A stretch of DNA of 33,538 bases from the IMG/VR virus record IMGVR_UViG_3300000117_000118, positions 1-33,538 of that record, one strand, 5' to 3'. This DNA comes from a virus. This document shows positions 3,563-23,340 of the stretch, piece by piece. The first letter of the stretch is position 1; each line of letters begins with the position of its first letter. Below the pieces are notes generated by a model. That model was not told the origin of the DNA and made no database searches. It saw only the letters and a list, made by a program, of their open reading frames with translations. A program made the position numbers and the translations under genes.

Positions 3563-4131
3563 TCTTGTGCTGCGATTGTTTCAAGTTCCTCATAAACCCC
3601 CTCTGAAAAAGCTTCCATAATTTCTTCATCAGTTGGTAAAGCGTTTTTATTTGGCTTTTGATTAACAACCTCTTTCAGCAAATAGTGAGGTTTTATTTCA
3701 CCGTCAAGGTTTTCTGCTAATAAAAAATTACCTTTTTTGCTTTTGATCCTGAAAAGCCTCTTGCCAGTTTCCTGTTCAAAAACAGAAACACGCTTGTCAT
3801 AAGCTTGTTTTGAGATCGGGATTGTTAAAAATTTGACCCTTTTTGCCCTTATCATTCCCCCGTACAATTTTTGAGCGAAACGGAAATCAGTGATTGCAAT
3901 GAAAAGATCATCACCTTGCCAAACTGGAGGACGAACAGATGATCGGATTTGAGTCCAGAAGTTTGTTCTTCTTGCCCCTAACTTATTAGGTTCCTTTGCA
4001 TTTTTTAGGGCAAAATGCTTCCGCAAAGAGTCGTATACTTTGAAAGCTCCAACATAACTCAAGTCACGATAAGTTTTTTTTTCTGAAAGATCCTTAAGAT
4101 TTTTCGGGATCTCGATTTGCACTCCTATCAT
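3559..4131 (-). CDS. Virion morphogenesis protein, Mu gpG-like
   Basis: The ATG at 4131 (MIGVQIEIPKNLK) is chosen because AGAGGAA lies 8 nt upstream. A longer frame to 4275 would lie inside the portal gene. The product is 190 aa. Residues in the pattern YGGMIRAKRVKFLTIPIS and RLFRIKSKKGNFLL match phage virion morphogenesis / tail-completion proteins of the Mu gpG and P2 S type. These act at the head-tail interface or in tail completion. It overlaps the portal 3' end by 38 nt and the protease start by 4 nt, so it is likely co-translated. Confidence 0.7.
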   Translation of the reverse strand: MIGVQIEIPKNLKDLSEKKTYRDLSYVGAFKVYDSLRKHFALKNAKEPNKLGARRTNFWTQIRSSVRPPVWQGDDLFIAITDFRFAQKLYGGMIRAKRVKFLTIPISKQAYDKRVSVFEQETGKRLFRIKSKKGNFLLAENLDGEIKPHYLLKEVVNQKPNKNALPTDEEIMEAFSEGVYEELETIAAQE

Positions 4132-6112
4132 CAGGGAATTCCTCTGTAAAAGATTGAAGTCGATCAAATGCTCCATTAGCAGCAGCAGCACCCATTGCTG
4201 ATTCAAGTGAACCCTGCAACGCATCCTGATCCAGTGAGTCAAATAATTCAGGCATTGATTCCGCAAGTTCACCAATTGCCTCGATTACTTTTGCATCATC
4301 AATGCTTTCGTTCATTGCCATGGACATAACCTTAGCGAATGCAGGTCGTGCAGGGGCAAGCCACTCAGCAGATACTCCCGTGATTGACTCCATGACTGTA
4401 TCAACTAACCTGTCATTTTGTGCAGGAATCCCTTTGGCTTGCACCAATGAGTCATCACCACATCCGCAATCATCAGGCTCATCTTCGATTAGTCCTGTCC
4501 ATTCTGAAGCATCAAGCACATCCTGAACCGTCTTGCCCTTTTCCCACATTTTGCAGGACCAGTAACGAGGTTTCCACTTTGGACCAGCATCATCGCACTT
4601 GTGTCTGCTTCGGAAGTTTTTACGGTTTTGATCGTCATCTCGTTTGATTTCCATATTAGGATCACCAAACTTAACAAGAACGGTATTGCCTTTGTCATTT
4701 TTTACATAGACCCCGAACTTCTTTTTGTCACCTTTGGGAAGTCGAAAAGGATCGTTTAAATTAGCTTTGGGTTCCTTGGCTTGAACTGTATCTTTGCCGA
4801 AAAATGAAGGTTCAGGAACACTTTGCTTTATTACGGGTTCCCCGACTTCAGGTATGCGTATTTTGTGCCTTTCATAGATCTGATCTTGCGGCAATTCCAT
4901 CCCCATGCTTATGAGTATCTGATCCCTTGTTGCCATCTGGACGGGATCTTCAGCGGATTCAAATTTGGTTTCAAGATAAGGAACCTCATCAGTATTGCCG
5001 TAGTTTAAAGCAATCGTCCTACGAATAATTTGATCGTTTACATTTTGTGCTGCCCAATTGCAAGCATCCTGCAAGTTATCCAGCCTGACCGTAGCGTGAA
5101 CATCTCCCAATGCCCTCGACCCTGAATCACCTACATCGGTTGTCAATGTTTGCCCAAGTATTAAAATGTCGCACACTCGATCCGCTACGTTAATCAGATG
5201 ATTTTGTGGATTGTCAGTCCCTCCTTTTGCAGCCTCAAGCAATTGCACTTCCGACCCTTCAGGGATCATTGCGTAACCAGCAGCAGCCAAATCACGCAAC
5301 CATGCCTCTAAACTTGTTCGATCATTTTCAGAAAGGTTTTTGCCGTACTTGGCTACACGCAATGGAATCCCGAAAATTTGAGCGTAACGCATTAACCATT
5401 GACGCCCAAAAATCATGCCTGACCACCAAAATGCAAGAACCCTGCTGAATCCATAAGTAAGCGGATTACCTGATCTGGTCTTGTATCTTCCAACTAAAAA
5501 TTTAGCATCAGGCATTTCAACGTAACCACCAGCACCACCTCCACCAGTGCCAATATTACGCAACATGATTTCAGTCCCAGATGAGTCATATCCCCAATAT
5601 TTAGGATGCACCCAGTAGCTTGACTTTGGGCATATTTTACCATCTTGAACATCCCACATTATTTCCTGAATCGAGATACCTTTGCCAACAGCATCGCAAA
5701 GATCGTAAACCATATCTTCAAATCCGTTCTCATTTCGCTTCGGAACAGGACGCATGTTATCAATCACGTATCGCACGAATTCAGCTTTTTCTTGCGCTGA
5801 AGCAGTGGGTTCCTTGCCCTGTTCAGCAAACGGTTGCACAATGTATTGCGCTCTTGATGCTGCTTTTTTGATCTCATGTAGATTCTTGGCGAGTCGAGGC
5901 CAAGTGTCTTCCATGATGGAATAAAGATCGTTTAAGCTTTGAGGATCTCCCGTAAATGCAGACTGAAGCAATCCACGCACTTGTGCAGGATCTAGTTTCT
6001 CATTTAAAAACGGGTGAAACTTTTCATTAAAGCTTGGCATGATGATCCGCTCAGATACATCTGCCTTTTTTGATCCTCTTTTTCTGACTGCTTTCTTTAT
6101 TGCTTCTGGCAT
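4094..6112 (-). CDS. Portal protein, DUF935 (Mu gp29-like), with C-terminal extension
   Basis: A 672-aa protein. The first ~430 residues match DUF935 portals of Mu-like phages: a Trp/Pro-rich N-terminus, GISIQEIMWDVQDGK, and the GWVHPKYWG-like region. Portals form the dodecameric channel at the capsid vertex. Residues from about 460 form an extension not needed for a portal: a FGVYVKNDKGNTVLVKFGD segment followed at roughly 495-522 by a Cys/Trp-rich motif (RHKC...RYWSCKMW), then a DDCGCGDD segment and an acidic helical tail. Similar Cys/Trp motifs occur in other phage head proteins (from memory). The start is 1 nt after the terminase stop. Confidence 0.85.
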   Translation of the reverse strand: MPEAIKKAVRKRGSKKADVSERIIMPSFNEKFHPFLNEKLDPAQVRGLLQSAFTGDPQSLNDLYSIMEDTWPRLAKNLHEIKKAASRAQYIVQPFAEQGKEPTASAQEKAEFVRYVIDNMRPVPKRNENGFEDMVYDLCDAVGKGISIQEIMWDVQDGKICPKSSYWVHPKYWGYDSSGTEIMLRNIGTGGGGAGGYVEMPDAKFLVGRYKTRSGNPLTYGFSRVLAFWWSGMIFGRQWLMRYAQIFGIPLRVAKYGKNLSENDRTSLEAWLRDLAAAGYAMIPEGSEVQLLEAAKGGTDNPQNHLINVADRVCDILILGQTLTTDVGDSGSRALGDVHATVRLDNLQDACNWAAQNVNDQIIRRTIALNYGNTDEVPYLETKFESAEDPVQMATRDQILISMGMELPQDQIYERHKIRIPEVGEPVIKQSVPEPSFFGKDTVQAKEPKANLNDPFRLPKGDKKKFGVYVKNDKGNTVLVKFGDPNMEIKRDDDQNRKNFRSRHKCDDAGPKWKPRYWSCKMWEKGKTVQDVLDASEWTGLIEDEPDDCGCGDDSLVQAKGIPAQNDRLVDTVMESITGVSAEWLAPARPAFAKVMSMAMNESIDDAKVIEAIGELAESMPELFDSLDQDALQGSLESAMGAAAANGAFDRLQSFTEEFPDDRSANRDPEKS

Positions 6113-6113
6113 T

Positions 6114-7352
6114 TTAGAATCCTATTCCATGTTGTGCTGCTGATTTTTGGTTGCCCAATTTAAAACCTTTTGCGGATCGTATGATCCCGTCCGTATTTCC
6201 TCTACGCATTCTTTCCACTGCTAAAGCCAATGCCATGACTCCATCGTCATGCATTCCTTCTGGTGCAGAGTATTTTACACCTCCTCCTGCCATGTATTCA
6301 TAGCTAAAGCTTTCAAGCTCAGATTTTAAACTTACATCAAAAAACTTGACTCTGCTTTGCTGGATAGCAGCCCTAAGTCCCATCATCAAGGATTGTTTGC
6401 TGGTGCTTGAGAATTTGAAACCCTCAAAATTGTTCCCCTCCGCAATCAAATCCTCAACGATTGGATCACCAACTCCCGTGCTATCAACTAGTGCAGGGAC
6501 ATAATCAGTTTCTTTGATAATGCTTTCTTTTGTCTCTGCCCATGGCTTTTGAAAGCGAATGTTTTTGGTCTGGCAACCGTAATCATCAAGCCCAACGCCC
6601 CAAGTCCAGTCATGTGATTTTGCAAGATCCCAACCAAACCAAGCAGTTTGATGAAAACTTTGATCAATGAAGCAATGCCTAATTGCATCGACTCCAAAAG
6701 GATTTCCCCCATCATCAGCAGGAACTCCCAAATATTCCTGATTATAAATTGCTTCGGGAAGTTCTTTTTGTGCGTCTAAAAGTTCTGCTTCAAGATCGGG
6801 GATCGTAGGATTGTCCTTGGTGCCTAGTCTCCAGCTTATCCAATCATCATTTAATTTCTGCCCTCTCAGGAACATCTGGTGAAAGTAATTGTGACCTTTT
6901 GGAGTTCCCAAGACCCATGCCTTGCCTTTGTAATCGGTGAGAGTTGGGCGTATATCTTGTTCCCATTTAGTTTTTAAATCCCTGACAACGGAAGCTTCAT
7001 CAATGATCACTCCATGGTATTTTCGACCACGACCAGCGTCTGGTTTTTCAAGGGACCAGAAATCAATTCGTCCTCCATTGATGAGATGCACCTCTCTAGT
7101 GTGCTTATCAGTATTTTTTACTATTGGAGCAAGTTGGCGTGTGATCTCAGTCCATTGCTCTGACATGAGCTTGTAGGTTGGAGAAAACCAACCGTATGTC
7201 TTGCCAGCAATTCCTGAAAATAAAGCAATGTGAAGACCTAGCGTAGTTTTTCCAAAACGTCTTCCACACTGAAGAACATTGAAACGCTTTGCATGGTTGA
7301 GGATTTTGGCCTGACCAGAATGCGGTTCAGGAATGTTAATGTCCTTATTCAA
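6114..7352 (-). CDS. Terminase large subunit
   Basis: A 412-aa packaging motor. The Walker A motif is GRRFGKTT (30-37), Walker B is VIIDEA (115-120), and a coupling motif LGTPKGH lies near 148. The C-terminal RNase H-like nuclease has candidate metal-binding acids at Asp242 (GWDLAKSHD), Asp290 (LVDSTGVGD) and Asp369-370 (MHDDGVMAL). The length is normal. It cuts concatemeric DNA and pumps it through the portal encoded next. Its start overlaps the small subunit stop by 4 nt. Confidence 0.95.
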   Translation of the reverse strand: MNKDINIPEPHSGQAKILNHAKRFNVLQCGRRFGKTTLGLHIALFSGIAGKTYGWFSPTYKLMSEQWTEITRQLAPIVKNTDKHTREVHLINGGRIDFWSLEKPDAGRGRKYHGVIIDEASVVRDLKTKWEQDIRPTLTDYKGKAWVLGTPKGHNYFHQMFLRGQKLNDDWISWRLGTKDNPTIPDLEAELLDAQKELPEAIYNQEYLGVPADDGGNPFGVDAIRHCFIDQSFHQTAWFGWDLAKSHDWTWGVGLDDYGCQTKNIRFQKPWAETKESIIKETDYVPALVDSTGVGDPIVEDLIAEGNNFEGFKFSSTSKQSLMMGLRAAIQQSRVKFFDVSLKSELESFSYEYMAGGGVKYSAPEGMHDDGVMALALAVERMRRGNTDGIIRSAKGFKLGNQKSAAQHGIGF

Positions 7353-7768
7353 TTTTCAAGCCACTTGGGAAGTGATACTTCTTTTCCACCCATGGTAATG
7401 TTGACCGTAACTTCCCCTGAATTCTCAACTTCAACTTGCTCTTTCATTCCGCAAAAGTTCTTTAGGGCAAATTGAAGAAGTGAATCACGATCTTCCTTGA
7501 TTGCCCTTCGGAGTAGCTTCATGCGTAAGCTTTGAGAAGTTTTTGCCTTGCCCTTGCGATACTCAGCAGCAAATTCAGAATCAGGTTTGACGAACTCACG
7601 ATTTACGGTCTTCACTGAAATCTTAAGAATGCCAGCAATGTCTGCCTGAGTTAAACCTAGTTGACCGAATCCTTCTGCCATCTCTACTGGCAACGGTTTG
7701 TAAGGCTTTCCAGCTTTTCTGGTTTTTTTAGCAACTGCTCTATTTCCGTTAGTTTTTACAGATCTCAT
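7349..7768 (-). CDS. Terminase small subunit
   Basis: A 139-aa basic protein immediately before the large subunit. After a Lys-rich N-terminus it has an HTH-like segment (LTQADIAGILKISVKTVNRE, about 38-57) and then a helical oligomerisation region. That is the layout of small terminases, which recognise the packaging site on phage DNA. Its start overlaps the dioxygenase stop by 4 nt, placing a DNA-modification-type gene in the packaging operon. Confidence 0.85.
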   Translation of the reverse strand: MRSVKTNGNRAVAKKTRKAGKPYKPLPVEMAEGFGQLGLTQADIAGILKISVKTVNREFVKPDSEFAAEYRKGKAKTSQSLRMKLLRRAIKEDRDSLLQFALKNFCGMKEQVEVENSGEVTVNITMGGKEVSLPKWLEN

Positions 7769-8604
7769 TTTTTCTTTTTCTTGAAAGCAGAAACGTAACC
7801 TTTCGTTTCCATCTTTGTGCGTAGCTGTCTGCTTCTAGCGATTTCTTCACCCATGGGCAAGCAACTCCACATGCGTTGCAAGGAGTAGTAAACAATGCTG
7901 AATCTCCTAGCAAATGAGCTTGTTTTGATTATTGGGGTTACGCCATGTAAAATATTCTGACCATCGAAAAAGAAAATAGAATTATCAGCAACCTCTACCT
8001 TAACCCCATACTCAGGCAAGGAAAGATGCCCTTGCTTGATTCCCTTTTTCATTACGATCATCGCACTCCATACGTTTTTATAATTACCTGCATCGAAGTG
8101 ATAGCAAAGAGGATTGTTGTCGTTCACGATCCCCGAAGTGAAAGGAGTTTCTTTGATCGTGAACTCTGGCTTTACTTTTTGTGCAGTAAGATTTGAATGT
8201 TTCTCATGTAAGCTTGCGTTATAAGTTTGGTAAACTTCGGAAGCGATTTTGCCCCCCTTCACAAACGCACCATGTTCTTGCCTTTGTTGTCGCATCAAAC
8301 TGGTCGATGAACAAAAATTCTTGCGTGGACTTCTTGGGCTATAACCAAAGATCCTGCTAGTGCTTATTATTCCGCTTAGTCTATTTGAATGCTGAAACTT
8401 TGTTTTAATGCAAGCATTCCATAACTCACCAAAGAATTTCTTTTTGTTCTTAGGCTTGCAATATAGAGCGATTAATTCCCCTGTTGAATCATCTTCAATG
8501 CAGCATTCTTCGGTGATTAATTTTTTGCAGTCATCTTCGGATGCAGATTTCTTGATGTAGCGTTTGTAATCAATATCAAGCTTTTTCAACTTCAGCTTTT
8601 TCAT
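7765..8604 (-). CDS. TET/JBP-family 2-oxoglutarate/Fe(II) dioxygenase
   Basis: A 279-aa protein with a double-stranded beta-helix dioxygenase signature. It has the iron-binding H169-x-D171 (YHFDAGN), a distal H220 (LHGVTP) and an Arg at 233-234 suited to binding 2-oxoglutarate. A GYSPR segment near 87-91 and QGHLSLPEYG near 191-200 are typical of the TET/JBP phage branch, which oxidises 5-methyl groups of cytosine or thymine in DNA. The first 60 and last 30 residues are Lys-rich. The gene overlaps the ParB-like gene by 29 nt and the small terminase by 4 nt. No DNA methyltransferase or nucleotide hydroxymethylase is visible, so the substrate is open: thymine, or 5-methylcytosine made by the host. 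Family assignment is fairly sure. The reaction is inferred. Confidence 0.8.
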   Translation of the reverse strand: MKKLKLKKLDIDYKRYIKKSASEDDCKKLITEECCIEDDSTGELIALYCKPKNKKKFFGELWNACIKTKFQHSNRLSGIISTSRIFGYSPRSPRKNFCSSTSLMRQQRQEHGAFVKGGKIASEVYQTYNASLHEKHSNLTAQKVKPEFTIKETPFTSGIVNDNNPLCYHFDAGNYKNVWSAMIVMKKGIKQGHLSLPEYGVKVEVADNSIFFFDGQNILHGVTPIIKTSSFARRFSIVYYSLQRMWSCLPMGEEIARSRQLRTKMETKGYVSAFKKKKK

Positions 8605-9241
8605 AAAGATCCAAAAGATAATTTAAAACGTCTACGTTAGTTTCCAATTGCTTTGTGCGCCTGATGCTTTCGAGTTTCTCGATCACCAACTCGTATTCTT
8701 CTGGACCGTATAGCAAAAGAATTTGCCTCACATCAGAATTTGCATATGCTTCAGCGATTTCCTCCCTAGTAGATTCGTTTTCTTGACCATGGAGCATGTG
8801 ATCATTTTCCATCTGGCTTTTTAGTAAGCTATTGATTTCTTCCGCATCAAAACCAGTTAAGTCCAAATCAAAGTCATCAAAAACATCATCAAGCAATAAT
8901 CCTTTCAAGGCATCGGTATCAGCTTCGGCAAGTTCAGCAATGCGATTATCAGCGATCATATCGGCAACCTCAGATGCTTCATCTTTGTAATCTTGAACAT
9001 CGACAGGAACTTTTTCTGTCTTGAGAAGCATGGCAGCAGCAAGGCGACCATGACCTTTTACAACAAACCCCGAACGCTTTGAAACTGTGATCGGGTTTCT
9101 CCATCCTTGATGCTGGATTATTTTTGCAAGCAAACGAATCTGCTCTGCTGGATGGGTATTGTAGTTTCGTGGATGCTCAACCAATGAGGTTGGATCTCTA
9201 AGTTCGGTATGTGAACAATGGATCTTTATTTTTTCGCCCAT
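8576..9241 (-). CDS. ParB-like nuclease domain protein
   Basis: A 221-aa protein. Residues 15-110 form a ParB N-terminal domain: HPRNYNTH (23-30), an HQGWRNPITVS segment, and KGHGRLAAA (62-70) in place of the classical GERR box. The C-terminal half is acidic and helical. Stand-alone phage ParB-domain proteins often neighbour DNA methylases, TET/JBP dioxygenases and terminases. The domain family can bind DNA and hydrolyse CTP, and some members are nucleases. Here it probably targets or assists the overlapping dioxygenase or DNA packaging, not partitioning. It overlaps the Mu F-like gene by 16 nt. Confidence 0.8.
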   Translation of the reverse strand: MGEKIKIHCSHTELRDPTSLVEHPRNYNTHPAEQIRLLAKIIQHQGWRNPITVSKRSGFVVKGHGRLAAAMLLKTEKVPVDVQDYKDEASEVADMIADNRIAELAEADTDALKGLLLDDVFDDFDLDLTGFDAEEINSLLKSQMENDHMLHGQENESTREEIAEAYANSDVRQILLLYGPEEYELVIEKLESIRRTKQLETNVDVLNYLLDLYEKAEVEKA

Positions 9242-10092
9242 AATAATTTATTGCCTTTAAGCTTCATGGATTTGCCTAATGCTTTCCGCAACTTTTTGAA
9301 GATTCCCGAATCCATGCTGTCTTTATTTACGCTTAGTTTTTTATTGAATGCAGATTTTGGTGATTTAATTTTTTGATCTTTTTTGATCAACCCCAAAGAA
9401 ACTGCCTCCCTTCTTCCAACCTCTTCAACATCCATCTGACTATTGAACCCCCAAGGTCCATGGGGAACTTGAAAACCCCCGATGTCCTTTTTGTTCATCT
9501 CAAGCCAAAATTTTGTATCATCCTTTAACCTTACCTGACCTTCATTCTGCTGGTGCAATGGTCTTGGAGTTTCAACCCATCCAACCCTGACAAATCTCCA
9601 TGCAGGGTAAGCATTAGTTACGGAAGGATCGACCGAAGCTTCAAAGTTAGCGTATCCGTAAGCTGATTGGATGTTGGCATCATAAATCAATTTCAATCTT
9701 CGGTTAGAAGCTAGATCAGTTATCTCAGGGATTAAACCTCTTTGCCCCCTGCCAAGACCGTTTGGCAAAGGATCTCCCATGCCTTCTTCTAAAGCTAAAT
9801 CCTGAATAAGCTTCACAAAATCAGCTCTGCCTCCAACCTTAAAAGCTTTTGACGGCATTCCTTCAGGACTAAAAACATCCTCTGTTTTGCCTTCCAGAAA
9901 ATCAACTAACTGTTTTTTTGCGTATGACAAAAACCTTGCTGATGCGACTCTTGAACTAAAAAAAGATCGATCACGAATAGCAGAGGACAATTCAGCCCAT
10001 TGCTTTGAGGTTAAACGTGACGCGATCTCCTTGCGTGATTTGAGTTTCTTGATTGCTTCCTCAAATCTTATTGGTGCGATATTGTAACTCAT
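9226..10092 (-). CDS. Minor head protein, phage Mu F-like
   Basis: A 288-aa protein. Residues about 130-220 match the Mu F / SPP1 gp7 minor head domain: an RLKLIYDANIQSAYGYANFE helix, an AWRFVRVG strand, ETPRPLHQQNEG and a conserved GFQVPHGPWGFNSQ segment. These proteins sit near the portal inside the capsid and assist morphogenesis. The usual place is next to the portal. Here ParB, dioxygenase and terminase genes lie between, so those genes may be an insertion into a standard head module. Confidence 0.8.
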   Translation of the reverse strand: MSYNIAPIRFEEAIKKLKSRKEIASRLTSKQWAELSSAIRDRSFFSSRVASARFLSYAKKQLVDFLEGKTEDVFSPEGMPSKAFKVGGRADFVKLIQDLALEEGMGDPLPNGLGRGQRGLIPEITDLASNRRLKLIYDANIQSAYGYANFEASVDPSVTNAYPAWRFVRVGWVETPRPLHQQNEGQVRLKDDTKFWLEMNKKDIGGFQVPHGPWGFNSQMDVEEVGRREAVSLGLIKKDQKIKSPKSAFNKKLSVNKDSMDSGIFKKLRKALGKSMKLKGNKLLWAKK

Positions 10093-10596: not shown

Positions 10597-10808
10597 TAAG
10601 TATCATTAAGCTTCTGCCTGATCCCTTGCAGGTAATACCAGAGATCGAGGACTTCTTCTTCAGCATGATCAAGAAGATTTGGTTTCTCCCAAAGGTTTCC
10701 GCCATGTTCTTTCTGACCTGCCATGTATTTATTTTTAGCAAGTATCTGGAATCTTTTAAGTGCCTGATCCATGCTCTCTGCTTGCTCTTTGGAAATATCT
10801 GAATTCAT
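10596..10808 (-). CDS. Short MazG-like (all-alpha NTP pyrophosphatase) protein
   Basis: 70 aa with the pattern KYMAGQKEHGGNLWEKPN followed by HAEEEVLDLWYYLQG. The EExxDxWYY helix is one half of the metal site of all-alpha NTP pyrophosphatases. The first E-x-x-E helix of full MazG domains is missing or replaced, so this is a reduced member, perhaps dimer-dependent. A full MazG-like gene is 340 nt away. Such enzymes clear non-canonical or excess dNTPs. Activity is uncertain. Confidence 0.55.
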   Translation of the reverse strand: MNSDISKEQAESMDQALKRFQILAKNKYMAGQKEHGGNLWEKPNLLDHAEEEVLDLWYYLQGIRQKLNDT

Positions 10809-10975
10809 AAGACAATTTTATTTGTTAGTTGTTTCGCCAAAAATTTTAAATACCCTTGCCGAATCTTGTCGAGCTTATTGTCAAGAAAAATGACACGAGT
10901 TTGAATTGTCTTTTTAGAAAGTGAGTGGGGAGGACCATCACCCCCTCCCCCATATCTCAGAGATTCGATGGTATT
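10805..10975 (-). other. Open frame continuing past the in-frame TAA of the 69-aa gene
   Basis: After the TAA at 10976-10978 the same frame stays open for 56 codons and closes with a TGA that overlaps the next ATG (ATGA), exactly as real genes in this phage do. It has no ATG, GTG or TTG near its 5' end. The translation is protein-like at the end (VIFLDNKLDKIRQGYLKFLAKQL). It could be the second half of a gene broken by a nonsense mutation, a readthrough extension, or chance. A stem-loop (10927-10950) lies inside it. Confidence 0.3.
10927..10950 (-). terminator. GC-rich stem-loop after the 69-aa gene
   Basis: A perfect 7-bp stem GGGGAGG/CCTCCCC with a 10-nt loop, about 25 nt downstream of the TAA at 10976. 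On the minus strand it is followed by ACTCACTTTCT, not a clean U-run. It may be a weak terminator or processing site. It could also simply be Gly/Pro codons if the open frame across it is translated. Confidence 0.35.
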
Positions 10976-11185
10976 TTACTTTTGTTTTTCAGGTTCCACA
11001 CACGTGGGCTGAAAGTGTTTCTCCACCTCGTATACCGCCCTATTCAGCTCTCCGTGCAAACCGTCATTGTCATAGGATCTTGGGACGTAGCAAAGGACTG
11101 TCCTTGCTACCTTACAAAGATTTAAAACCTTTTCATCTTTGTTAATGTGACTAAGCTTTGTCTGCTCTTTCGTTTGCTTGCTCAT
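10976..11185 (-). CDS. Hypothetical protein, 69 aa, possibly truncated
   Basis: ATG at 11185 lies inside the end of the MazG-like gene (35-nt overlap). The N-terminus is Lys/Gln-rich and polar. The middle, ARTVLCYVPRSYDNDGLHGE, is more fold-like, and it ends EPEKQK. No family is recognised. The same frame continues open for 56 codons after the TAA, so the gene may be the first half of a ~125-codon gene with an in-frame stop. Coding status is likely but not certain. Confidence 0.45.
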   Translation of the reverse strand: MSKQTKEQTKLSHINKDEKVLNLCKVARTVLCYVPRSYDNDGLHGELNRAVYEVEKHFQPTCVEPEKQK

Positions 11186-11507
11186 TTGAATACTCCCCCT
11201 TTGAATATCTCTTTTGGAGTTTTGAAATGTTTTCCATCAAGGTTTCAATTCTGGTGAGGTTAAGCGATTGCCTCAATCCCTCCATGTAAAACTCCAAGTC
11301 ACCAAGTTCCTCGATTACATTTTCAAGGTCAAGTGGCTTTTGATAAATCGCCCATTTCTTGATTGCGTCAAGCAACTCTCCAGCTTCCCCTGCAATTCCT
11401 ATTGCCATGTGCAGAGCATCAGCTTGTTCAGGCTTTAATTCGTTGATGATTTCTTTAGATGATTTTTTAAGATCACTAACCAGCGTTGAATGTTCAAAGT
11501 TACTCAT
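11151..11507 (-). CDS. MazG-like nucleotide pyrophosphohydrolase
   Basis: 118 aa, all-helical. Both metal-binding helices are visible: GIAGEAGELLDAIKKW (E-x-x-E type, about 37-52) and VIEELGDLEFYMEGL (E-x-x-D type, about 64-78). That is the MazG / all-alpha NTP-PPase fold. Phage members hydrolyse dNTPs or alarmones during infection. In phages with modified bases they may also clean unmodified nucleotide pools. The gene is coupled to a DnaA-C-like HTH gene upstream by a 4-nt overlap. Confidence 0.8.
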   Translation of the reverse strand: MSNFEHSTLVSDLKKSSKEIINELKPEQADALHMAIGIAGEAGELLDAIKKWAIYQKPLDLENVIEELGDLEFYMEGLRQSLNLTRIETLMENISKLQKRYSKGEYSNEQANERADKA

Positions 11508-11806
11508 AATTCGTTTTTAAATTTCGGTATTGCTACTGATTCAATTTCTTTAATTCTCTGTTTTAATTTTTTGTCGATGGTTAAAAGTTTTCTGATCGTC
11601 TTGTCCGCATAATCAGCAGATCCTCTGGTCCTGCCAAATCTGGCAGCAGTGTAATGCATTCCCGTGTGAGTGTGCTTCATTACTAAATACATCGCAACCA
11701 TTCTGGCTTCGCTCACGGGATAAATTCTGCTTCTACCCATAATTTCAGTTGCGCCAATACCGTAGCTGTCAGCAGTTGCGTTTATAATTGGCTCGACGAT
11801 AATCAT
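11504..11806 (-). CDS. DnaA C-terminal-like HTH protein
   Basis: 100 aa. A region ARMVAMYLVMKHTHTGMHYT followed by AARFGRTRGSADYADKTIRK resembles DnaA domain IV, where a helix-turn-helix precedes the DnaA-box-reading loop. The classical DHSTV signature is replaced by GSADYAD. Stand-alone phage versions occur in replication blocks and probably bind DNA. No AAA+ ATPase part is present. The gene overlaps both neighbours by 4 nt. It may act with the DUF1376-like protein at a phage origin. Confidence 0.65.
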   Translation of the reverse strand: MIIVEPIINATADSYGIGATEIMGRSRIYPVSEARMVAMYLVMKHTHTGMHYTAARFGRTRGSADYADKTIRKLLTIDKKLKQRIKEIESVAIPKFKNEL

Positions 11807-12396
11807 ACAGCACCACCCATCCGCTTAAGCCAGTTGGTCATGTCAGCATACTGATCCCTGACTGGTTTGTTTTGATACAAAAAAAGTTGCATTGCTCTGA
11901 GAGTTCTCCAGCAACCGTGCGGTCTTTCCCATACCATTGTGACAAACATCTCATCAAAAATAATGCTTGCAGATCCATTCATTCTCCGAAGTGCATCACA
12001 ATAATTTTTCATGTGCTTTCTGAGATTTGCCATCAAACCAACCTCTTGTTTTTCAGTCAGGTTTGAAACACCTTCATCAGTAACTCTCATCAGCTCCACA
12101 GCAATCGCTTGCATCCCGTCCTTGCTTGCAAGATACATTTCACGGGTAGTCCCACAATTATCGCAGCAAAGACCTTTAAGGGCCATTTTTACGACTTTAA
12201 CTCCAAGGTATTTATCAGCATCTTCTGCGTCTCCATGCTCACGCCATTCCTGATAAGCATCTGGATGGATAACTGCTTCAGCCATGCGACCGCATATCCT
12301 GCATGAGCGCACCTCTTTGGGCCAATCCCTTGTAACAACTTTCTTTTTGGCTTTAGAGGTAAAGTTTTTAATTCCCCATAGTGTGTCATCAATCAT
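11803..12396 (-). CDS. Zinc-finger-type hypothetical protein, 197 aa
   Basis: Contains two Cys pairs, CRICG (about 33-37) and CCDNCG (about 76-81), that could bind one zinc ion. A helical C-terminal part follows. No enzyme motif is visible. It lies between a replication-organiser-like gene (8-nt overlap) and a DnaA-C-like gene (4-nt overlap), so a role in replication or DNA binding is likely from context only. It could take the place of a helicase-loader, but no Walker motif is present. Confidence 0.65.
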   Translation of the reverse strand: MIDDTLWGIKNFTSKAKKKVVTRDWPKEVRSCRICGRMAEAVIHPDAYQEWREHGDAEDADKYLGVKVVKMALKGLCCDNCGTTREMYLASKDGMQAIAVELMRVTDEGVSNLTEKQEVGLMANLRKHMKNYCDALRRMNGSASIIFDEMFVTMVWERPHGCWRTLRAMQLFLYQNKPVRDQYADMTNWLKRMGGAV

Positions 12397-13171
12397 CGTT
12401 TAGTCTCCTTAGTAATTCATCGGCTGATGCTCGTTTTCGCTTTGGAGCATTGCCTTGTGTTTTAATATTCTGCGATCTTGTTTTCCAGTTTTGGAGTTTT
12501 GATTTCCAATTTATCAAAGCCCCGTATTTATTTAGCCAATAATTATTGTCATTGTGCCAGTTGTAAAATGACTCTGCCGTTTCTCTAAGTATCCCACGCA
12601 TTTGAGCAAGATCCCAGACTTCATCCCATGTAGGGATTTCAGCGGAGCGATCATCTCTCTCTTCCTTAGAGAGAGTAGTTATTGGTAATGGTAGTGGTAG
12701 TGATTTAGTTGCTCTACCCTTGGTAGTGGAGTTCAATTTTCCGTTTAACTGATTAGGTTCTCCAGTCACCTCTTCACTTACTACTGCACTTGCGTTGCTT
12801 TCGTTGATTTCCAGATACTTGCGCTTATTTTTTGCGCTCTTTTTACCACCCCTGCTGCAATTCAAAATGCGTTCTTTATATTCCAAGTAGTCATCACAAA
12901 GTCGATTGTTTTTGATGAAAACTTTTTCATTTTCAGTCCAGATTTCACCAACTTTTGCATCTTCAAGTTCAGCCAAAATTCTTTTAGCTACCCGTTTAGG
13001 GCATCCTAAGACCCTTGCCCAAATGTCGATCCTGTGACCTGATACGCCAACTTCATCAGCATTTGCGAGATGACAAAGTATGTCCATCCATGCCCCCTTT
13101 GCCTCAAGGCTTAGAATCCTTGTGTCCTTCAGGTAATCTGCCCAGAAGAATTGCGAGTATGGAATCCCCAT
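12389..13171 (-). CDS. Replication-organiser-like protein (DUF1376-type)
   Basis: 260 aa. The N-terminus (FFWADYLKDTRILSLEAKGA, WMDILC, GCPKRVAKRILAEL) matches phage proteins of the DUF1376/YdaU and replisome-organiser type, which carry a winged-helix region. A basic, poorly structured middle (GGKKSAKNKRK) follows. The C-terminal part (ETAESFYNWHNDNNYW and later) resembles phage replication-initiator C-termini. It probably binds the phage origin and recruits host replication proteins. It begins 1 nt inside the end of the RHH gene, with an AGGAGG-like site upstream. Confidence 0.65.
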   Translation of the reverse strand: MGIPYSQFFWADYLKDTRILSLEAKGAWMDILCHLANADEVGVSGHRIDIWARVLGCPKRVAKRILAELEDAKVGEIWTENEKVFIKNNRLCDDYLEYKERILNCSRGGKKSAKNKRKYLEINESNASAVVSEEVTGEPNQLNGKLNSTTKGRATKSLPLPLPITTLSKEERDDRSAEIPTWDEVWDLAQMRGILRETAESFYNWHNDNNYWLNKYGALINWKSKLQNWKTRSQNIKTQGNAPKRKRASADELLRRLNDD

Positions 13172-13320
13172 TACTGCACCTCCTTCATGCCCTTCACAAA
13201 TTCCTTGATCAGTTCCTCAACTATCTCTTGGATCTTCAATCCCTGATAGGCTGCTGCAATTCGTAATTCCTTGTGGAGATCCTCACTGATCACCAGAGTT
13301 TTCGTTGTTCTTGTTTTCAT
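13171..13320 (-). CDS. Ribbon-helix-helix protein, 49 aa
   Basis: A small frame from ATG 13320 to TAA 13171. The sequence TKTLVISEDLHKELRIAAAY then QGLKIQEIVEELIKEFV has the strand-helix-helix pattern of Arc/CopG regulators. It is the first gene of the replication operon and ends with an overlap into the next ATG (TAATG). A candidate promoter lies at 13331-13358, so it may repress its own operon. Confidence 0.7.
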   Translation of the reverse strand: MKTRTTKTLVISEDLHKELRIAAAYQGLKIQEIVEELIKEFVKGMKEVQ

Positions 13321-13330
13321 AGGTTCTGTA

Positions 13331-13358
13331 ATTATGCAAAATTGTAATATTAAGTAAA
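13331..13358 (-). promoter_or_regulatory. Candidate sigma70 promoter for the replication operon
   Basis: On the minus strand: TTTACT, 16 bp, CATAAT. The -10 element is the same CATAAT seen in the early promoter at 18805. It ends 11 nt before the RHH start codon, leaving a very short leader, so transcription start and translation start would be almost adjacent. A weaker match than the four early promoters. Confidence 0.4.
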
Positions 13359-13394
13359 GGCTATTTTCAACTTAGTTTCTTGCCTTTTGTGATC

Positions 13395-13422
13395 TTGACC
13401 TGAAGGGATTTTGTGCTACGTT
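13395..13422 (+). promoter_or_regulatory. Candidate plus-strand promoter of the small RNA
   Basis: TTGACC, 16 bp, then TACGTT, with an extended -10 TGC just before the hexamer. It points away from the minus-strand genes and toward a strong terminator at 13471-13508. No plus-strand ORF follows. The predicted start point is near 13429. Confidence 0.45.
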
Positions 13423-13943: not shown

Positions 13944-14101
13944 GGTCTTCGGTAGATGCTTGACTCACGTTTTTGACCCTCATATTCAAAGGTCACCACA
14001 TCCTCCCCAAATAATCCCTCTGAGATATTTAGCACCTTAACATCATCGAGTGATACATGGAGATTCCCGATCATGACGTATGCATTTTCTTCATTCTTCA
14101 T
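13940..14101 (-). CDS. Hypothetical protein, 53 aa
   Basis: ATG at 14101 overlaps the TGA of the DGQHR-type gene, and its own TGA overlaps the VRR-NUC ATG. It starts MKNEENAYVMIGNLHVSLDD and looks beta-rich (VVTFEYEGQKRESSIYRR). No family is recognised. Coupling at both ends makes it a real gene. Confidence 0.65.
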   Translation of the reverse strand: MKNEENAYVMIGNLHVSLDDVKVLNISEGLFGEDVVTFEYEGQKRESSIYRRP

Positions 14102-14934
14102 AACGCATTAAATAAAGATTCCTCATTATCATCTCCAAGAACCCTTGGTAGTTTTTTCCCAGCTTCAAACAAGTAACTGCCTGCTCTCTTTCTTCCATGC
14201 ACGCTGCGATTAAACGTATCAATGATCAGTCCGAATCTTGAGTATTTAGTTAGAAATCCTCCATTGAAATTGGATTTCTGATTTTCATCAATGATTCGAT
14301 TCCTTAGAGACAAAACAGGACTTCCTTTTTCAAGCCCTACACCAGTGACAAACTGCCTGATGAATTCCTCAACCTTCTCCCTCATCCCGTTTTTAGAAGC
14401 GATGAAATGCAAGGCACTCAAAGTTGCACCACCAATCATTCTTGGAGTTTGTTTCATTTCGCAAAAAGATGCGGAAGTAAGAATAAATCCATTTTGCTTG
14501 ATGAACTCCAATACCTTGTAAGGCGACTGAACATTCATTCTTGACTGTGGTCGATTGTAATAAGCGTGCAGCGTTGTTGCTGCCCCTGCAAGCAAAGTTG
14601 TGTTTTTGTATCCATGAATTGTCAGAATGTCAGATGTTCTGCGAACGCACCGATCAACGTCAATGTGATTGATCATTTCAGGCTCGATCTCAGTAACAAC
14701 AACTGTTTTACAATCGATCCCCGAATCAGCAATGCCTAGCAGCCTATGCTGACCGTCCAGAATATTTCCATTCCTGTCTATTTTTATGCTGTCACCATTA
14801 TGCCTCCACAAACCGTTTTTGATTTCCTCACTTATTTTCTGCCAGTGATCTTTTCTGACTTTTCTGTTTCGTCGATTTGCTCCAAGCAGTTTTTTTGCAA
14901 TACTTGGGGTTACTGTTTCAATTTTTGCTATCAT
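14098..14934 (-). CDS. ParB-like / DGQHR-motif phage protein
   Basis: 278 aa. The N-terminal 120 residues form a ParB/sulfiredoxin-like domain with the box LDGQHRLLGI (Asp60, Gln62, His63, Arg64), then EIEPEMINHIDVDRCVRRTSD. The C-terminal part is helical (REKVEEFIRQFVTG). This is a widespread phage protein of unknown activity. The box resembles the phosphate-binding box of ParB-type proteins, so nucleotide or DNA-end binding is possible. It is the second ParB-fold gene in the window, and its box differs from the GHGR of the first. Confidence 0.65.
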   Translation of the reverse strand: MIAKIETVTPSIAKKLLGANRRNRKVRKDHWQKISEEIKNGLWRHNGDSIKIDRNGNILDGQHRLLGIADSGIDCKTVVVTEIEPEMINHIDVDRCVRRTSDILTIHGYKNTTLLAGAATTLHAYYNRPQSRMNVQSPYKVLEFIKQNGFILTSASFCEMKQTPRMIGGATLSALHFIASKNGMREKVEEFIRQFVTGVGLEKGSPVLSLRNRIIDENQKSNFNGGFLTKYSRFGLIIDTFNRSVHGRKRAGSYLFEAGKKLPRVLGDDNEESLFNAL

Positions 14935-22278: not shown

Positions 22279-23340
22279 GTGAGGGGAATGTTTAAGGATA
22301 AATCAAAAGGTGTCGTGAATGAATTCGTGATCGACTCAGATTACAACCAGTGCAATGGCTACGGAGATCTTTCAAGAAACTTCACAAAGGTTCTGAACAA
22401 GATGATGCCAATCAAGATCAACTCACCCTTGCATTATCATGGGTACCTTGACGAGCTTGGTTACGGCAAGCAGATCATCAGAGGCAATCCCACAATCATT
22501 TCATCCCTTTCAATCCAGCCAACCTTCTCGATGATGCGTCCTCCAATCGGTCAGAAGAACGCGATCTTTACGATGTTTGAAAGCTCAAAGCTTCGACCTG
22601 AATGGATTCAAAGAATTAATTCTTTTGACTTGTGCCTGACTCCATCCACCTACAACAAAGCACACTTTGAAGATCAGCTTGCAATCCCTGTCGCTCATAC
22701 CTTAATGGGATATGACCAAAATATTTTTACTTTCCACCAAGCAAAATCATCTGGACCTTTTGTTTTTGGTGCTGCTGGTCACGTTGGACATGGTCGAGCG
22801 AGGAAAGGGATCGAGCGAATCATTGACTGGTTTCAATCCGCATTCCCAAAAAACAAAGAAGTGCGGTTGAAAATTAAAATTAACGCATGGGATGAAAATG
22901 ATCTTGCTGCCAGTGATCCTAGAATTGAAGTTATTGAAAAGGATATTTCTGAAACTGCTTGCCGTGACTGGTTGAGATCCTTGCATTGCTACGTGGATGG
23001 AAGCACTTCTGAAGGTTGGGGCATGTGGACACAAAATGCAATGGCGACAGGCAATGCGGTCATCTGCACTAATTATTCTGCACGAAATGATTATTTAAAA
23101 TTTGGCAACCACATCCCCATAGGTTACAGACTGATTCAATCCTCTGGTCAATATAAAGGCTTAGGTCATTGGGCAATGCCTGATCGAAGTGATGCGATTG
23201 AAGCAATGCGATGGGCTTTTAAAAACAGGAACCAATGCAGGACGATCGGCAAGGCTGCTTACGAATCGGTTAAGCACATGACTTGGGATGCTTCTGCAAA
23301 ACTTATTTTGAGATCAATGAAAAGAAAAAGTTTGATTTAA
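22279..23340 (+). CDS. GT-B (GT4-like) glycosyltransferase
   Basis: 353 aa from GTG 22279 (AGGA 8 nt upstream). An in-frame ATG at 22288 is an alternative with a poorly spaced GAGGGG. The C-terminal half has the GT4 pattern: a GHGRARKGIERIIDWF segment (the RKG motif at 175-177) and GSTSEGWGMWTQNAMATGNA, where Glu245 is kept but the second Glu of the usual E-x7-E is replaced by Asn/Gln. It transfers a sugar from a nucleotide donor. The acceptor could be an oxidised DNA base, a virion protein or host surface glycan. It is the only plus-strand gene and has its own promoter. It ends tail-to-tail with the zinc-ribbon gene. Confidence 0.8.
   Translation: MRGMFKDKSKGVVNEFVIDSDYNQCNGYGDLSRNFTKVLNKMMPIKINSPLHYHGYLDELGYGKQIIRGNPTIISSLSIQPTFSMMRPPIGQKNAIFTMFESSKLRPEWIQRINSFDLCLTPSTYNKAHFEDQLAIPVAHTLMGYDQNIFTFHQAKSSGPFVFGAAGHVGHGRARKGIERIIDWFQSAFPKNKEVRLKIKINAWDENDLAASDPRIEVIEKDISETACRDWLRSLHCYVDGSTSEGWGMWTQNAMATGNAVICTNYSARNDYLKFGNHIPIGYRLIQSSGQYKGLGHWAMPDRSDAIEAMRWAFKNRNQCRTIGKAAYESVKHMTWDASAKLILRSMKRKSLI

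Follow-up and report, generated by a model that had tools for sequence, protein, structure and literature searches.

The window, the whole stretch of 33,538 nt analysed here (IMG/VR virus record IMGVR_UViG_3300000117_000118, positions 1 to 33,538), comes from a virus that infects bacteria. It contains a run of genes for a MuF-like minor head protein, a ParB-domain protein, a predicted TET/JBP dioxygenase (below, TET), the terminase small (TerS) and large (TerL) subunits and a portal protein, the first five of which overlap (Table 1). An initial annotation made from the sequence had described the 279-aa reading frame with its overlaps of 29 nt with ParB and 4 nt with TerS, all of which are present, and was right to place it in a packaging operon, since head gene, ParB, TET, TerS, TerL and portal are consecutive. 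It missed that the modification enzyme and the tail of ParB are exchanged as a unit among phages of this lineage.

Table 1. Features of the window, and genes that stand in place of TET in sister phages
Feature	Position or locus	Strand	Evidence
MuF-like minor head protein, upstream of ParB	9226..10092	-	Pfam, PHROG
ParB/Srx-domain protein, 221 aa, overlapping TET by 29 nt	8576..9241	-	ORF, PHROG
ParB N-terminal domain, residues 1-131, 93% identical in sisters with other modification enzymes	8849..9241	-	Sequence comparison
ParB C-terminal tail, TET-linked type, exchanged with the effector in sisters	8576..8848	-	Profile scores
TET/JBP 2OG-Fe(II) DNA pyrimidine dioxygenase (predicted), 279 aa	7765..8604	-	Pfam, alignment, model, PDB comparison
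TET Fe ligands H169, D171, H220	8098-8100, 8092-8094, 7945-7947	-	Alignment
TET 2OG-binding Arg (candidate), R234	7903-7905	-	Alignment
Exchangeable segment, ParB tail plus TET	7773..8847	.	Breakpoint comparison with sisters
TerS, overlapping TET by 4 nt	7349..7768	-	ORF, PHROG
TerL	6114..7352	-	Pfam, PHROG
Mu-type portal protein, downstream of TerL	4094..6112	-	Pfam, PHROG
ABC ATPase and GNAT in place of TET	L136, L139, L148, L149, L154
One TAGT in place of TET	L137, L157
Two glycosyltransferases in place of TET	L140-L142
N4/N6-methyltransferase fused to the ParB domain, no TET	L138
C5-methyltransferase in place of TET	L145, L155
C5-methyltransferase, AsnB-type and CmoA-like genes in place of TET	L144, L153
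Mom in place of TET	L147, L151; L150, L152 (by sequence)

The TET/JBP protein

The 279-aa protein is a TET/JBP oxygenase with an intact metal site. It matches the Pfam profile Tet_JBP at 2e-12 (47.1 bits; curated cut-off 34.9), and the profile is matched by 53/53 of its relatives. The first relatives were aligned and used to search IMG/VR, which confirmed 178 relatives; 80 of these were retrieved. Within bacterial genomes, relatives were found only in Siphonobacter and one Ignavibacteria MAG. Across an alignment of 53 diverse relatives H169, D171, H220 and R234 are invariant; R233 is not. The HxD motif at 169-171 and H220 proposed initially therefore stand; of the arginine pair 233/234 offered with them only R234 is invariant, which makes it, and not R233, the candidate for binding 2-oxoglutarate.

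A structure model built from the 53-sequence alignment has a pLDDT of 95.1 and a pTM of 0.90, replacing a discarded model from 12 sequences (pLDDT 39). When it was compared with the PDB, the best 26 matches were all to CcTet, NgTET1, TET2 and CMD1, with FTO and AlkB proteins next; the predicted double-stranded beta-helix fold is closest to TET/JBP enzymes. Such a fold search had been suggested as a check, and the model falls among the TET-type 2OG oxygenases, so that profile, model and structural matches bear out the TET/JBP assignment. A PDB sequence search gave a weak match to CMD1 alone (0.026), which we did not use as sole evidence. PHROG 6059 matches at 2e-41 under the label ‘queuine tRNA-ribosyltransferase’, which is ruled out by the TET/JBP fold and family. 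Many RefSeq phage TET/JBP proteins (e.g. Coopervirus gene 2) carry the name queuine tRNA-ribosyltransferase or DpdA-like. Comparison with a sister genome indicates purifying selection on the genes here (for TET, dN 0.004, dS 0.077).

ParB-TET operons in other phages

Among TET loci with 900 nt or more of sequence upstream, ParB precedes TET in 57/59 and overlaps it in 36. Overlap lengths, most commonly 35 or 29 nt, equal 2 modulo 3 in 51/54 overlaps; the frame offset is therefore conserved. The search for the same gene order that had been proposed finds ParB-TET-TerS-TerL again in Mycobacterium phage Nigel, where ParB-TET starts the terminase operon as in the window (TET is Coopervirus gene 2) and nothing stands between TET and TerS. 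Gordonia phage Wooper and Rhodococcus phage Tonitrus share this start but add an amino-acid:DNA transferase (ADDT) and a 5hmU-kinase-like gene after TET. A published genome note presents ParB, TET, aGPT-PPlase2 and 5hmU kinase as one predicted thymidine-hypermodification system, named for Tonitrus (PMC11955845). ParB-TET operons are thus already known, and the window TET itself adds one more member.

The modifier slot beside TET

Genes around TET were classified in 88 loci, near-copies included. The slot holds a glycosyltransferase in 35, mostly of the TAGT family (PF20691 is matched by 16 of 24 tested), an FkbM methyltransferase in 15 (all tested match PF05050), an ADDT and/or kinase with or without a FAD enzyme in 16, and a Fic protein in three. 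None of these is found in the remaining 19, and in 14 of the 19 TET runs directly into TerS. The window is empty at this position, as its TET and TerS genes overlap, leaving no room for another gene. Slot content changes 32 times along the TET tree versus 34.3 with shuffled labels and is therefore almost independent of TET ancestry. Loci L047 and L049, for instance, have 89.5% identical DNA over ParB-TET and 83-92% over the terminase region, with a glycosyltransferase in one slot and FkbM in the other; among TETs in the same synteny, the one nearest to the window's (L034, 64%) also has FkbM in its slot. No TAGT-like gene was found in nine FkbM records, which are fragments, and FkbM may thus methylate the hydroxymethyl base itself.

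For wider negative searches we used the window together with its sister genome G002 (L014, 38.3 kb), whose ends are related (175 bp at 95%) and bridged by G001; it is thus nearly complete, and circular permutation is probable. An alignment search for the TET-associated glycosyltransferase PF20691, in which positive controls were found, detected no member in either, nor did either match PF18724, sought for the 5hmU kinase and ADDT/aGPT-PPlase of thymidine hypermodification operons. The only glycosyltransferase in the window (22279-23340, plus strand) was rejected as a DNA glucosyltransferase: it is GT4-type, on the opposite strand near tail genes and unrelated to the TET-linked glycosyltransferases. 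With the slot empty, the earlier suggestion that the DNA is perhaps glycosylated finds no support. The GT4 gene is 73% identical between window and G002, and its flanks 91-94%. At 10782-13417 G002 carries FkbM and another methyltransferase gene missing from the window, in a variable region beside a tail protein.

Thymine or 5-methylcytosine

As the initial annotation had noted, no DNA methyltransferase or hydroxymethylase is visible: neither DNA C5-methyltransferase (PF00145) nor thymidylate-synthase-type hydroxymethylase (PF00303) was found in the window or G002. C5-methyltransferase is present in 3/58 TET records and in 0/19 more distant ones, a rarity that favours thymine as substrate. PF00303 was not found in 30 records searched, including complete kinase/ADDT phages; among 13 records mostly of the kinase/ADDT type, including the complete phages Wooper and Tonitrus, none had a thymidylate-synthase-type hydroxymethylase, so that the visible source of 5hmU in them is TET. 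Amino-acid:DNA transferase and 5hmU-kinase-like genes occur in about 16 TET loci, none of them in the window's own subclade, and 5hmU is the substrate of the 5hmU kinase with its partners in known phages (PMC6449724). By gene content, then, thymine is the favoured base.

In L055 (1158-4741), and also in L056, a C5-methyltransferase lies between two ParB-like genes, followed by TET and a Fic gene in the slot; this Fic protein could nucleotidylate the hydroxymethyl base. Such loci mean that use of 5-methylcytosine (5mC) can evolve and that, across the family at large, 5mC has to be counted among the possible substrates.

Avoidance of palindromes was considered as a substrate clue and rejected. 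In the window CCGG is seen once versus 33 expected and GGATCC 0 times versus 11.6, and GATC and AATT are not avoided, which at first suggested that T-containing sites are protected; but the pattern is common to sisters with other cassettes and so carries no information on TET. Lineage-wide, GTAC is strongly avoided; CCGG, GGATCC and CTCGAG are avoided in the window's subgroup.

Exchange of the cassette in sister phages

A search with the window TerL found sister phages whose TerL is up to 97% identical and whose ParB N-terminal domain is 93% identical, yet which carry other, Pfam-confirmed DNA-modification genes. TET was found nowhere in the 17 sister records, three of which are 31.7, 34.6 and 37.1 kb long. 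The replacements (Table 1) sit between ParB codon ~131 and TerS. Breakpoints between window and sisters are sharp, at 8835-8853 on the left and in most cases 7770-7776 on the right, and recur in independent contigs; DNA identity around them is 75-80% upstream and 82-91% downstream. ParB tail and TET are thus exchanged as one unit with sharp borders. TAGT-type glycosyltransferases at L137:6783-7649, L140:8112-9550 and L141:2363-3813 occur without TET or a visible source of hydroxylated base.

The ParB protein and its tail

The initial annotation had recognised a ParB-domain gene with a ‘GHGR’ box beside TET. The box is at residues 63-66, and PHROG ParB families match at up to 1e-34, with Pfam ParB_N sub-threshold (0.0039, 17.6 bits). 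A second, weakly ParB-like protein lies at 14098-14934 (PHROG 5931, 3e-50).

Residues 9-106 are nearly invariant over all cassette types; the tail beyond residue ~131 tracks the effector. Scored with an HMM trained on 73 ParBs from TET loci outside the window lineage, the tails of the window and L143 reach 64 and 74 bits, versus 10.8 bits or less for eleven tails linked to other effectors. Like tails accompany the same effector over different ParB/TerL backgrounds, with 27/32 identities for CmoX-like, 31/55 for ABC-GNAT, 67/82 for two-glycosyltransferase and 44/83 for TET cassettes. The TET-type tail is also kept in TET loci whose ParBs are only ~34% identical, and in 14/14 loci with an intervening glycosyltransferase, FkbM or kinase gene between ParB and TET (50-82 bits), which favours functional pairing over plain physical linkage. 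The association of tail and effector is not a universal rule, because the Mom-linked tails of L147 and L151 are unlike each other. The L147 tail has weak partial similarity to the TET type (10.8 bits), so that this type may extend beyond TET. Most simply, ParB would be the docking adaptor of an exchangeable modification cassette, a role to which these correlations point.

Proposed mechanism and alternatives

Taken as a whole, we think it probable that TET hydroxylates a pyrimidine of the phage DNA through a ParB adaptor within an exchangeable cassette. Late in infection, ahead of packaging, TET would hydroxylate the 5-methyl group of a pyrimidine base of the phage genome; conversion of thymine to 5-hydroxymethyluracil (5hmU) is the likeliest case. 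The invariant N-terminal domain of ParB would contact phage DNA or a phage site and its variable tail would recruit the modifying enzyme, tail and effector, which together span the interval from ParB codon ~131 to TerS, being exchanged as one cassette. Relatives would swap in other chemistries as counter-defence (TET with a decorating enzyme, Mom, methyltransferases, CmoX/CmoY/CmoA-like genes or glycosyltransferases). As TET is alone in the window's cassette, with no recognised decorating enzyme, the predicted end product is a bare hydroxymethyl base (5hmU or 5hmC). We infer DNA as the target, thymine as the base, ParB as a DNA-bound adaptor and resistance of the modified DNA to restriction as the benefit.

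The base could instead be 5mC, made by a methyltransferase of the host, or of the phage but encoded outside these contigs, and oxidised to 5hmC. The closest solved structures are indeed of 5mC enzymes, L055/L056 pair a C5-methyltransferase with ParB and TET, and phage TETs acting with C5-methyltransferases have been described, as cited in PMC12730594. Dependence on host methylation would however be unusual for a strategy kept in hosts as different as actinobacteria, Siphonobacter and Ignavibacteria; with C5-methyltransferases in so few TET records and none in near-complete G002, and with thymine-type downstream enzymes in about 16 loci, we regard 5mC as an unlikely substrate here. Far less probable still is action on RNA, protein or host DNA: 2OG oxygenases are versatile, the activity on phage DNA is a prediction, and the PHROG label names a tRNA enzyme, but that name is unsupported in the face of the TET/JBP fold and family, and nearly all alternative occupants of the locus are DNA-modification enzymes.

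ParB and effector might also be mere neighbours, ParB providing conserved DNA for homologous recombination while having a separate job (e.g. nicking or packaging), and the tail hitchhiking by adjacency. The breakpoint does fall where the conserved ParB domain ends, with the tail adjoining the effector. Against this stand the TET-type tails retained despite intervening genes or strongly diverged ParBs, and the direct fusion of the ParB domain to a methyltransferase in L138; we put this explanation about as low as that of 5mC. Returning to the docking reading, we entertain tentatively a more general plug-in system, in which the invariant ParB domain would mark or clamp phage DNA and exchangeable tails would dock TET, Mom, N4/N6- and C5-methyltransferases, CmoX-type sets or glycosyltransferases, so that one recombination event would change the DNA chemistry. 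A second slot, in the TET version, would swap the decorating enzyme, including FkbM without a detectable TET-type glycosyltransferase, which would give an undescribed base, 5-(methoxymethyl)pyrimidine.

Relation to known systems

The window TET shares with the 5mYOX-type TET/JBP members NgTET1, CcTet, TET2 and CMD1 the fold, the HxD...H metal site and the distal Arg, but is only 10-15% identical to the solved ones and has ParB in place of a C5-methyltransferase partner. Its predicted reaction, putting a hydroxymethyl handle on T, is also the first step of the thymidine hypermodification pathway (5hmU kinase, aGPT-PPlase/ADDT; PMC11955845), but in the window TET rather than a nucleotide hydroxymethylase would provide the handle, acting on DNA, and no downstream enzymes are found. 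It differs from the C5-methyltransferase-coupled phage TET systems, there being no such methyltransferase in the window or G002, and from the TET-TAGT glycosylation system, whose TET-associated glycosyltransferase is absent.

ParB-domain genes often neighbour phage DNA-modification enzymes and are frequent near the CmoX/CmoY/CmoA 5-carboxymethylcytosine system, their role being stated as unknown (PMC12783734). The C5-methyltransferase, AsnB-type and CmoA-like sets of sisters L144 and L153 resemble that system, whose chemistry differs from that of the window, with a cytosine methyltransferase homologue in TET's place. Mom (phage Mu) and ABC-GNAT genes fill the same ParB-TerS interval in sister phages; Mom is an adenine modification, and these enzymes are unrelated to TET. 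The literature searched, which excluded the main earlier operon survey, contained no description of whole chemistries being exchanged behind one invariant ParB domain whose tails are effector-specific, and priority is not firm.

Sister phages that differ in their cassettes amount to a natural swap experiment and suggest a generic ParB N-terminal domain with an enzyme-specific tail. Judged from its gene context, the window TET is likely a thymine hydroxylase needing no methyltransferase, which would be useful in its own right. If tail docking is true, it would explain how phage base chemistry can change fast and would offer a modular handle for steering DNA-modifying enzymes.
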